35,666 nt of DNA. Source: an uncultured Erysipelotrichaceae bacterium. GTDB taxonomy: Bacteria; Bacillota_I; Bacilli_A; Erysipelotrichales; Erysipelotrichaceae. This document shows, one piece after another, positions 5,764 through 8,995 of this stretch. Position 1 is the stretch's first letter. Each line of letters begins with the position of its first letter. A model generated the notes under the pieces. That model was not told the DNA's origin and did no database searches. It saw only the letters and a list, made by a program, of their open reading frames with translations. The DNA lies in the NCBI GenBank assembly GCA_944325935.1, contig CALVCF010000055.1, forward strand, positions 1 to 35,666. Direction: 5' to 3'. The translations under genes were made by a program, and so were the position numbers.

Positions 5764-6022
5764 ATAAAAAGCCGTCCCGACAAAGGACGACTAGCTCGCG
5801 TTACCACCTTATTTTACCTGCTTGTTGCCAAGCAAGCCTCAAAAACCACCAACATGGTCTAACACTTTAACGGGTGTTAAGCGTGATACTCTACTTTGCA
5901 AATTTCAAGTTCCCACTAGCTGATGTATTCAGTATGACTCACTGACCGTTTGCACCAAACACGATCTCGCTGTAAGTTGAGGCTCATACCTACTATTTCA
6001 GGTCATTGCGTTTTTATTTCTT
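5764..6022 (-). promoter_or_regulatory. T-box riboswitch, specifier UAC (tyrosine)
   Basis: The leader has the T-box sequence AAGGTGGTAACGCG (5797-5810), whose UGGU can pair with an ACCA-3' tRNA end. A terminator follows: GTCGTCC/GGACGGC plus TTTTT (5766-5791). In stem I the helix GTATGA/TCATAC closes the specifier loop, which has the loop-E AGTA on its 5' side and GAA followed by TAC (5925-5927) on its 3' side; CTGA/TCAG forms the helix below. UAC is a tyrosine codon. Uncharged tRNA-Tyr should favour antitermination and expression of the ABC operon. Alignment with the second T-box places both specifiers at the same position. Confidence 0.88.
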
Positions 6023-7065: not shown

Positions 7066-7327
7066 AATAAAAAATCGCCCCCTAAAGGGCGATTAGATCG
7101 CGTTACCACCTTTATTCATCACCTGATTGCTCAAGTGACCTCATTTACCTACCAACATAGGTAAGATCTTTTAACGATGATCAATCGTGGTATCCTACTT
7201 ACTTCAGTACCCTACTCCACGAGGAATTCCATATCTTTTACACTGATCGTTTGCACCAACCACGACTTCTCTTGAGTGTAAATCTAGAAATGTACTAGTT
7301 CGTATCGCTGTATTTTTTTATTTGTAC
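7066..7327 (-). promoter_or_regulatory. T-box riboswitch, specifier UUC (phenylalanine)
   Basis: T-box sequence AAGGTGGTAACGCG at 7099-7112 and terminator ATCGCCC/GGGCGAT plus a T-run (7066-7094). Stem I aligns with the first T-box: ACGA then ACTAGTA on the 5' side, and GAA-TTC-C followed by TCGT on the 3' side. The intervening helix pairs CATTTCT and TTTACAC with GTGTAAA and AGATATG, with one U-U mismatch and a 3-nt bulge. The specifier TTC is at 7224-7226, a phenylalanine codon. A nearby TAT in the same strand was considered, but it falls inside the helix in this fold. Confidence 0.85.
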
Positions 7328-7370: not shown

Positions 7371-7871
7371 TTACTTTTTCTTTGAAAATTTTTTCTTAAG
7401 GCGCATGTACCACCCGTTGGGATTGATGCGAGCCTGTTTTTGTTTTTCATAAGTCTCTTTGTCCAAAAGGTTTCTCGTCAAACATGTGCGAACCTTCTCG
7501 ATCTGAAAGGTCACGACTTTGATCATCTGCTGATTCGTCAAACGTACAATCAAAGATCCAGGGCCATTGTTGTTGGCGTTACAAGCCCATTCATCAATTT
7601 CATCAAACGAAATCTTTTCGATCGACCCATCTTCCATATAGAGATATAAGGCATCTTTTGCAATAGACAAAACATGGCGATCTTTGACAAGAAGTATTGA
7701 AAGCAGTGCAACGACGATCAAAACGATCCCGAAGATCCGTATCCATAACAAATTTACTAACAACAGCAAAATCCCGATCACAAAAACAGCAATAATCTCG
7801 ACTTTCGGCCGATAGTTTATCTCTTTTAAAACCTTCGACTGATCAATATCACTTAAATTAACTTTTTGCAT
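7371..7871 (-). CDS. Small membrane protein of unknown function
   Basis: I do not recognise this 166-aa protein. It has two adjacent hydrophobic segments at about residues 25-42 and 44-61 (VEIIAVFVIGILLLLVNLLW, then IVLIVVALLSILLV) and a soluble C-terminal part of about 100 residues that ends in a very basic tail (RLKKKFSKKK). The domain after the membrane hairpin (YLYMEDGSIEKISFDEIDEW) resembles a PH-like beta sandwich in style, but this is only an impression. It starts 42 bp after the corA stop with a GGTGA ribosome site. No clear terminator lies between, so it may be co-transcribed with corA. Confidence 0.75.
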   Translation of the reverse strand: MQKVNLSDIDQSKVLKEINYRPKVEIIAVFVIGILLLLVNLLWIRIFGIVLIVVALLSILLVKDRHVLSIAKDALYLYMEDGSIEKISFDEIDEWACNANNNGPGSLIVRLTNQQMIKVVTFQIEKVRTCLTRNLLDKETYEKQKQARINPNGWYMRLKKKFSKKK

Positions 7872-7913: not shown

Positions 7914-8867
7914 CTAATGAAACATATTTTTTTTCTTGAATATGAAGATAGCGATCAGACAGGCCACCAAAGCCAAAACAGTGGGGAACCAGACCTGAGC
8001 AAAGGGCATTCCTTCTACATTCATACCATAAAAAGAGAAGATGATATTGGGAATGGACATAACGATCGTAATAACGGTCAGGACTTTCATTACGATATTT
8101 AGATTATTGGAGATAACAGAGGCAAAGGCATCCATTGTACCGCTTAGGATATTGGAATAAATATTACACATTTCAATAGCCTGCTTGACCTCAATGATGA
8201 CGTCTTCCAGAAGATCCTCGTCATCTTCATATAATCGGATAAACTTGCCCCTCATGATTTTATTGAGGGTGATCTCATCAGCTTTCAAGGAAGTCGAAAA
8301 GAAGACGAGCGACTTCTCTAGACCTAACATTTGAATCAGCTCTTTGTTCTGCATCGATTGGTATAAACGAGTCTCTGTTTTAGTTGAAATACGGTCGATT
8401 TGTCGCAAATAAACCAGGTATTGTTGCGAGATCCTAAGCAATAATAAAAGTAAAAAGCGCGTCTTTAAACGGGTATCCATTCCTTTGATGCGGCCCAAAG
8501 CCATATCGCGGATAGACCAGTTATCATAAAGAGAGATCGTAACGATATAACCGTCTAAAATTACAATACCCATTGGATTGGTCTTATATTGCAAAGTTAT
8601 GAACTCATCGTTATTTGATTTGGTATCATCGCAATCCGGATAGTCGACGATCACAAGAGTCTGATTATAGTCATCATCATAATCGATATGAGAGCTTTCT
8701 TCATCATCTAATGAAGATTTTAAGAACTCAGGCAAGACGCCGATCTCATTGATTAAAAAATCTTTCTCTTCTTCACTTGGAGAGACACAATTGATCCAAG
8801 CTCCCCTTTCGACCTTATCGATATGATGGGTCGTACCATTTTCTAAAGTCTTGAAAAATTCTAACAT
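7914..8867 (-). CDS. corA: CorA-family divalent cation (Mg2+) transporter
   Basis: CorA proteins form pentameric inner-membrane channels for Mg2+ and sometimes Co2+ or Ni2+. This 317-aa protein has the expected large acidic N-terminal domain, a long helical stalk region and two C-terminal membrane segments. The first ends in the signature YGMN (GMN motif) and a short loop leads to the second. The start ATG at 8867 is chosen because AGGAGG (8874-8879) lies 6 nt upstream; the longer open frame from 8912 runs through the leader ORF and its hairpin. An upstream 26-codon ORF ends exactly at this ribosome site. No M-box riboswitch is visible. Confidence 0.93.
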   Translation of the reverse strand: MLEFFKTLENGTTHHIDKVERGAWINCVSPSEEEKDFLINEIGVLPEFLKSSLDDEESSHIDYDDDYNQTLVIVDYPDCDDTKSNNDEFITLQYKTNPMGIVILDGYIVTISLYDNWSIRDMALGRIKGMDTRLKTRFLLLLLLRISQQYLVYLRQIDRISTKTETRLYQSMQNKELIQMLGLEKSLVFFSTSLKADEITLNKIMRGKFIRLYEDDEDLLEDVIIEVKQAIEMCNIYSNILSGTMDAFASVISNNLNIVMKVLTVITIVMSIPNIIFSFYGMNVEGMPFAQVWFPTVLALVACLIAIFIFKKKNMFH

Positions 8868-8878
8868 ACTAGTCCTCC

Positions 8879-8959
8879 TTACAAAGCGAAGACCATCTTT
8901 ATGTCTTCGCACTTTTGATCATTTTTTAAAAAACATATTCCTATAGGGTCCGAAGACAT
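8879..8959 (-). CDS. 26-aa leader peptide ORF upstream of corA
   Basis: An ATG at 8959 is preceded by GAGGTG at 6-nt spacing, a good ribosome site. The ORF reads MSSDPIGICF... and ends ...KMVFAL, with its TAA overlapping the first base of the corA AGGAGG. The frame differs from corA. The N-terminus carries Asp-Pro, which recalls MgtL (Glu-Pro-Asp-Pro), the enterobacterial leader whose translation aborts at low Mg2+. Its DNA contains three related segments, A (8951-8960), B (8900-8910) and C (8886-8893). B can pair with A over 10 bp or with C over 8 bp, but not both. It looks like a translated regulatory leader; function is inferred, not shown. Confidence 0.62.
   Translation of the reverse strand: MSSDPIGICFLKNDQKCEDIKMVFAL
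8886..8910 (-). promoter_or_regulatory. corA: Alternative hairpin B-C before the corA ribosome site
   Basis: GCGAAGAC (8903-8910) pairs perfectly with GTCTTCGC (8886-8893) around a 9-nt loop; the stem ends 6 nt before AGGAGG. The competing structure pairs CGAAGACATA (8900-8909) with TATGTCTTCG (8951-8960), which covers the leader ORF start codon. There is no T-run, so control at the level of translation, or via Rho, is more likely than intrinsic termination. Confidence 0.6.
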
Positions 8960-8986
8960 AAATTCCACCTCTTTTCAAACGATACT

Positions 8987-8995
8987 ATTTTACCA
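8987..8995 (-). promoter_or_regulatory. corA: Extended -10 promoter of the corA leader
   Basis: TGGTAAAAT is an extended -10 element 27 nt upstream of the leader ORF start. No convincing -35 is seen at the right spacing. The tRNA-Lys terminator lies about 50 bp further upstream, so this region should start its own transcript. Confidence 0.55.

Follow-up and report, generated by a model that had tools for sequence, protein, structure and literature searches.

Introduction

A few enteric leaders are documented to sense Mg2+ by means of how stable the ribosome is during translation, and early destabilisation of the ribosome is documented mainly in E. coli and Salmonella. The window analysed here, the whole 35,666-nucleotide stretch of contig CALVCF010000055.1 from an uncultured Erysipelotrichaceae bacterium (GCA_944325935.1), contains a corA gene preceded by a short ORF and by segments able to form alternative hairpins, which raises the question of whether translation of the ORF controls corA and, if so, in response to which signal. 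A sequence-only reading of the locus had proposed attenuator-like logic, and that core idea is retained here; since the output appears to be initiation of corA translation and the leader lacks a terminator, however, Salmonella mgtQ, and not the Rho-dependent mgtL or corL leader, is the closest known system. We favour, with a probability of roughly 0.7, a ribosome-operated translational attenuator of corA of the mgtQ kind, in which low Mg2+ would cause ribosomes to abort or pause early at the acidic N-terminus of the leader peptide and thereby turn corA on. In the open-access literature searched we came across no report of a corA leader in Gram-positive bacteria or Firmicutes.

The corA gene and its leader ORF

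The regulated gene, corA, encodes a 317 aa protein from a start at position 8867 (7914–8867, minus strand) that matches the Pfam CorA family (PF01544, E 2e-44). As the match to the narrower TIGR00383 fell below the family cut-off, Mg2+ is a likely rather than a proven substrate and is taken as an assumption. Upstream lies a leader ORF of 26 codons, MSSDPIGICFLKNDQKCEDIKMVFAL (8879–8959, minus strand; ATG 8959–8957, TAA 8881–8879), with a Shine–Dalgarno (SD) sequence, GAGGTGG (about 8965–8971, minus strand), and purine-rich SD sequences are also found 5′ of the leaders of relatives. The ORF terminates directly on the corA SD, GGAGGAC, just as the sequence-only reading had it, giving the arrangement of the mgtL/mgtQ kind, i.e. 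a short ORF that has its own SD and lies immediately 5′ of a Mg2+ transporter gene. The idea that corA is extended N-terminally, from the GTG at 8912, was considered and dropped, the leader frame relative to corA being random across relatives.

An extended −10 promoter element, TGGTAAAAT (8987–8995, minus strand), resembles TGn-TA[TC]AAT, and 26 of 27 Erysipelotrichaceae-type leaders have such a site, between −29 and −37 relative to the leader start. Transcription is thus predicted from these promoter-like sequences to start ~20 nt before the leader start codon, which would leave no room for an upstream aptamer. Neither the window leader nor the loci of 11 relatives matched any Rfam family at the gathering threshold, and relaxing the threshold yielded chance matches only, far below the cut-off. 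The M-box covariance model (RF00380) had no match in the corA 5′ region. The M-box had been named as the usual Mg2+ device of this group, a remark that fails close to home as the element was found neither in the genome itself nor in its genus and occurs in 23 of 192 family genomes. No intrinsic terminator was found within the leader and the sole terminator-like site nearby on the minus strand (9066–9048) lies upstream of it, so that the output is most likely corA translation, to which the hidden corA SD described below also points.

A small membrane protein gene (7371–7871, minus strand) with a weak, below cut-off match to a bacterial PH domain lies directly 3′ of corA and is possibly cotranscribed with it.

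Four segments with alternative pairings

Segment A (UUUAUGUCUUCG; 8951–8962, minus strand) comprises the leader start codon and codons 2–4 and can pair with segment B (GCGAAGACAUAAA; 8898–8910, minus strand) through 12 consecutive pairs (8962–8951 with 8909–8898), two more than the 10 bp originally counted. Alternatively, B can pair with segment C, an anti-SD (8884–8895, minus strand), over the 8 pairs already proposed (8910–8903 with 8893–8886). The sequence-only reading had recognised these two hairpins as switchable and had missed a further pairing, that of C (8895–8884) with segment D (AAGGAGGACUA; 8870–8880, minus strand), which holds the corA SD and is masked by C in the off state. With C:D added, the set consists of four segments and the element becomes a complete switch.

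The predicted fold of the whole leader (111 bases, 8975–8865) has an energy of −26.1 kcal/mol against a mean of −18.2 for 200 dinucleotide shuffles, none of which was as good (z −2.7), and consists of A:B together with C:D, with the corA SD hidden. Removal of the RNA upstream of 8932, mimicking a ribosome near codon 5, gave B:C (−12.0) with the SD open, and removal of that upstream of 8905 brought C:D back (−9.7), i.e. the three states of the window fold as predicted and B:C is the stronger of the two competing stems. The calculated probability of the SD being unpaired was 0.08 in the free leader, 0.83 with a ribosome at codons 6–12 and 0.08 with one at codons 13–18. In these models a ribosome held on codons 5–12 would free B for C and expose the corA SD, and a ribosome over B would restore C:D.

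Conservation of the pairings

CorA relatives were gathered from named genomes and by searches of the genus, family and phylum, and their upstream regions were read for leader ORFs, 62 of which were collected. Across 28 Erysipelotrichaceae-type leaders the A:B helix was 87% paired, with 25 two-sided changes compared with 8.4 in shuffles (0/500 as high), and pairing fell to 35–53% when the helix was shifted by 1–3 columns. Because MAFFT displaces segments C and D by 1–2 columns, C:D and B:C were assessed by partner swapping and folding rather than from alignment columns, each A being paired with the B/C regions of other leaders and each B/C region with other SD regions. Own partners were better than swapped ones in the 28 Erysipelotrichaceae-type leaders (A with B/C, −19.9 vs −15.2 kcal/mol; B/C with D, −12.2 vs −9.8 kcal/mol) and likewise in the Oscillospiraceae (24 leaders; A with B/C, −23.5 vs −17.8 kcal/mol; B/C with D, −15.1 vs −11.8 kcal/mol). 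For both pairings in both lineages none of 5000 permutations was as good as the own partners, although such permutation counts, like those from shuffles, are not true probabilities since the sequences are related. The B..C hairpin on its own was better than shuffles in all 28 Erysipelotrichaceae-type and all 24 Oscillospiraceae leaders. Much of the pairing in Oscillospiraceae lies upstream of the start codon, and the peptide start is the same as in the Erysipelotrichaceae type. Across relatives the ORF frame, the motif described below and the helices are all conserved, to a degree well beyond chance, and the helices covary, where an absence of conservation would have counted against the sequence-only reading.

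Constraint on the start of the leader peptide

Of the 62 leaders, 60 have Asp or Glu as residue 4, 60 have Pro as residue 5 and 43 have Pro as residue 3, giving the motif M-[SNGA]-[P/S/A]-[D/E]-P; the likeness of the window's Asp-Pro start to enteric MgtL that had been pointed out earlier holds. Typical starts are MSPEPE, MAPEPEA, MSPDP and MSSDP in the Erysipelotrichaceae type and MNPDPGS, MSSDPGGS and MGTDPGG in Oscillospiraceae. Beyond about residue 8 the leaders are without conservation, and their lengths vary between 11 and 53 residues. Position 5 is encoded by each of the four Pro codons in one leader or another. Among 18 sister pairs, codons 2–7 carry 23 synonymous and 10 nonsynonymous differences compared with 8 and 108 respectively in codons 9–16, and codons 4–5 carry five synonymous and no nonsynonymous differences. 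Together with the motif these ratios argue that the leader ORF is constrained as a peptide and only at its start, where an acidic/Pro motif of the destabilising kind is conserved at the protein level. Two leaders from the window's own genus (L056 and L057) begin MSLDSDG and MSLDADG; they have no Pro at residues 1–7, and an acid-x-acid arrangement (D4, D6) is kept where Pro is lost.

Ribosome position and predicted exposure of the corA SD

Accessibility of the corA SD was computed in a ribosome simulation in which only the RNA downstream of the ribosome was allowed to fold. Mean accessibility in 34 Erysipelotrichaceae-type leaders was 0.14 in the free RNA, 0.56–0.60 with the P-site at codons 4–11 and 0.13 at codons 15–17, compared with a slow rise from 0.43 to 0.69 without a dip in shuffled controls. 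The Oscillospiraceae set had the same shape in weaker form (0.26 free, about 0.40 at codons 4–9 and 0.20 at codons 15–16). Covering codons 1–5 in a masking test of 60 leaders raised SD accessibility from 0.21 to 0.50, against 0.45 to 0.48 in shuffles. The codons of the acid-Pro motif lie inside the range of ribosome positions that opens the SD, and the SD is also predicted to be free when the ribosome approaches the end of the leader ORF. Mutually exclusive stems selected by ribosome position are thus indicated by prediction and covariation together, and both the covarying segments and the folding with ribosome positions support the earlier idea that translation of the leader decides which hairpin forms.

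Of 53 classified leaders, 33 have their stop codon 5′ of C (before B in 5, in B in 11 and between B and C in 17); in 16 leaders, that of the window included, it falls between C and the SD. With the stop so variable, the property that the leaders share is a finishing ribosome that is usually past, on or beside B, and not termination next to corA.

Distribution of the leader and the CorA tree

A search of 196 family genomes with a DNA pattern combining an SD with MSP[D/E]P gave 16 matches, each of them immediately 5′ of a corA homologue, and the reversed pattern, used as a control on the same genomes, had none. A tree was built from 101 CorA proteins. One supported clade (100/95) has 65 members, 57 of which carry the leader with its conserved motif, and none of the 36 proteins outside the clade does; these counts include as leader-bearing L003 and L006, labelled ‘none’ in the tree but copies of L056 and L057. 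The clade spans Erysipelotrichia and Clostridia, and, with the midpoint root, the Erysipelotrichaceae branch is nested among a series of Oscillospiraceae branches, which suggests that corA and its leader moved together between the classes. The leader has apparently been lost in L011, L026, L080/L081, L082, L104/L105 and L034. The last of these is a basal member of the leader-bearing clade, and the ORF upstream of its corA, MADGVGHDRFISNSL..., starts MADGVGHD, without Asp-Pro, and resembles the MSLD[SA]DGH leaders.

A relaxed pattern gave 11 matches in 197 Oscillospirales genomes, two of which are stand-alone short ORFs before corA (L151 and L159). A third (L150) is an ORF of 35 aa in front of a gene unrelated to corA, and the remaining matches, which lie inside longer frames or before other genes, were rejected with it. 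An element common to the leaderless L080, L081 and L126 was considered as an alternative leader and set aside, since in L081 and L126 it is located at the RNase P RNA end and matched as such by Rfam; in these two, corA adjoins the RNase P RNA without a leader, and L080 has the same upstream sequence. Short ORFs ~100 nt before a more distant CorA type in L096 and L097 (MDAGPYHDQYDTNET and MDSGPYHSSLKEHN) have Asp and Pro early on and may represent a second family of leaders. In L107 an ORF, MSSDINRSTLKQLNNKHISAFFVFL, is situated 145 nt before a CorA from outside the clade, with a start like the window's MSSDP but without Pro.

Proposed mechanism and alternative explanations

In the mechanism that we propose, transcription would start just 5′ of the leader SD and ribosomes would begin on the leader at once. 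Without a ribosome on the leader, A:B would form and C would pair with the corA SD, keeping corA off. With plentiful Mg2+, ribosomes would clear the Asp/Glu-Pro codons and cover B, and C:D would re-form, so that corA expression would be low. Under Mg2+ scarcity, ribosomes would pause or break up early on the acidic N-terminus (codons 3–6, P-[D/E]-P or D-x-D); repeated early ribosomes would keep A covered and leave B unreached, and the free B would pair with C, release D and permit translation of corA. The sequence comparisons lend good support to a switch of four segments that depends on translation of the leader, and to a constrained peptide start, and the folding models predict that a ribosome at codons 4–11 exposes the SD. 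We infer that the leader is actually translated and, by analogy with the enteric systems, that ribosomes abort or pause early at codons 3–6, that Mg2+ is the signal and that low Mg2+ is the on state. The genome itself encodes one bL31, a ribosomal protein reported to counter such ribosome destabilisation.

The same attenuator might answer to another signal, ribosomes slowing at P-[D/E]-P for want of EF-P, an ABC-F factor or charged tRNA-Pro, so that the leader would report translation capacity and not Mg2+. The frequency of Pro at residues 5 and 3 (60 and 43 of 62 leaders) fits such a signal, as does the relief of the MgtL EPDP block by the E. coli ABC-F protein EttA (PMC11282234), and EF-P has been linked to mgtA (PMC6460261). 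L056 and L057, however, dispense with Pro at residues 1–7 and keep D4 and D6, mgtQ depends on its acidic residues and not on Pro (PMC8092293), and the element is tied to corA only, as a Mg2+ signal would predict; we regard this alternative, the main rival, as rather unlikely. Plain translational coupling, in which a leader translated to its stop would open C:D and feed ribosomes to corA with no sensing involved, would account for the predicted freeing of the SD by a ribosome near the ORF end, and the variable stop, which 16 leaders (the window's among them) have between C and the SD, would also allow coupling by re-initiation. Yet a ribosome terminating before C, as in 33 of 53 leaders, would often leave C:D closed, and coupling requires neither B nor the N-terminal motif, both of which are conserved, so that we consider it improbable.

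That the conserved start is kept merely as RNA, i.e. as arm A, and not as peptide is suggested by the overlap of A with the start codon and codons 2–4 in the Erysipelotrichaceae type, but is very hard to reconcile with the use of all four Pro codons at position 5, with the purely synonymous differences at codons 4–5 of sister pairs (5 to 0) and with the Oscillospiraceae leaders, whose pairing is largely upstream of the start codon and whose peptide start is nevertheless the same. Least probable, and only barely credible, is control of corA by an upstream metal-binding riboswitch (M-box or other) with the leader ORF incidental; known Mg2+ riboswitches do occur in the wider family (23/192 genomes), but the predicted transcription start leaves only ~20 nt before the leader codon, no Rfam family matches and neither the genome nor the genus has an M-box.

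Relation to known leaders

Erm-type translational attenuators are triggered by macrolides and use a C-terminal arrest peptide. The corA leader shares with them four segments arranged as 1:2/3:4 versus 2:3 and a downstream SD predicted to be exposed by a ribosome on segment 1, but its conserved part is the first 5–7 residues and its gene is corA, and neither drug-induced arrest nor a C-terminal arrest peptide is indicated. Salmonella mgtQ is an 8-residue uORF with Asp2 and Glu5 in the mgtC–mgtB intergenic region, where stems 1:2 and 3:4 hide the mgtB RBS and stem 2:3 frees it, and loss of its start codon or of its acidic residues lowers mgtB (PMC8092293). A short uORF before a Mg2+ transporter, the same exchange of stems, acidic residues within the first five codons and a translational output are common to both systems. 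The mgtQ ORF, however, has 8 codons and sits within a gammaproteobacterial operon before a P-type ATPase, MgtB, whereas the present ORFs are 5′-leader ORFs of 11–53 codons before corA in Erysipelotrichia and Clostridia; we do not claim common descent.

MgtL, the leader peptide of mgtA in E. coli and Salmonella, likewise has a motif of acidic and Pro residues immediately behind its Met (EPDP, compared with P-[D/E]-P in the present leaders), at which ribosomes drop off at low Mg2+ and which EttA counters (PMC11282234); its translation also selects an RNA fold ahead of a Mg2+ transporter gene, but its output is Rho-dependent transcription termination, whereas in the present leader the corA SD is hidden and there is no intrinsic terminator. 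The corL/corA leader of E. coli and Salmonella, which in E. coli acts through Rho (PMC11552253), and the described corA motif (PMC6429828) resemble the present case in having a leader ORF before corA and alternative structures. They differ from it in Rho dependence and in that the corA motif, with 325 representatives, is confined to Gammaproteobacteria (PMC6429828); Rfam does not match the present leaders.

On balance we lean towards regarding these as Mg2+-sensing leader peptides outside the Proteobacteria, in which ribosome destabilisation at P-[D/E]-P or D-x-D would open the corA start, and which would have evolved independently of enteric MgtL/MgtQ and travel with corA between Clostridia and Erysipelotrichia. 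If so, the enteric logic and a near-identical motif (EPDP in MgtL; here SPEP, SPDP and NPDP) would recur in two gut Firmicutes classes ahead of a Mg2+ transporter that is unrelated, which would suggest that acid-Pro destabilisation of the ribosome is a general, repeatedly evolved Mg2+ sensor. The leaders also supply dozens of natural variants with which the destabilising residues could be identified and the behaviour of Gram-positive ribosomes compared.

Other features of the window

Two tandem T-box leaders (5780–6015 and 7082–7317, minus strand) each precede their own copy of an ABC substrate-binding lipoprotein gene (PF04392; 4784–5743 and 6062–7066), T-box and lipoprotein gene apparently forming a duplicated unit. 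A partial group II intron RNA (RF02001) occupies positions 1–142 of the window on the minus strand and runs off the contig end.
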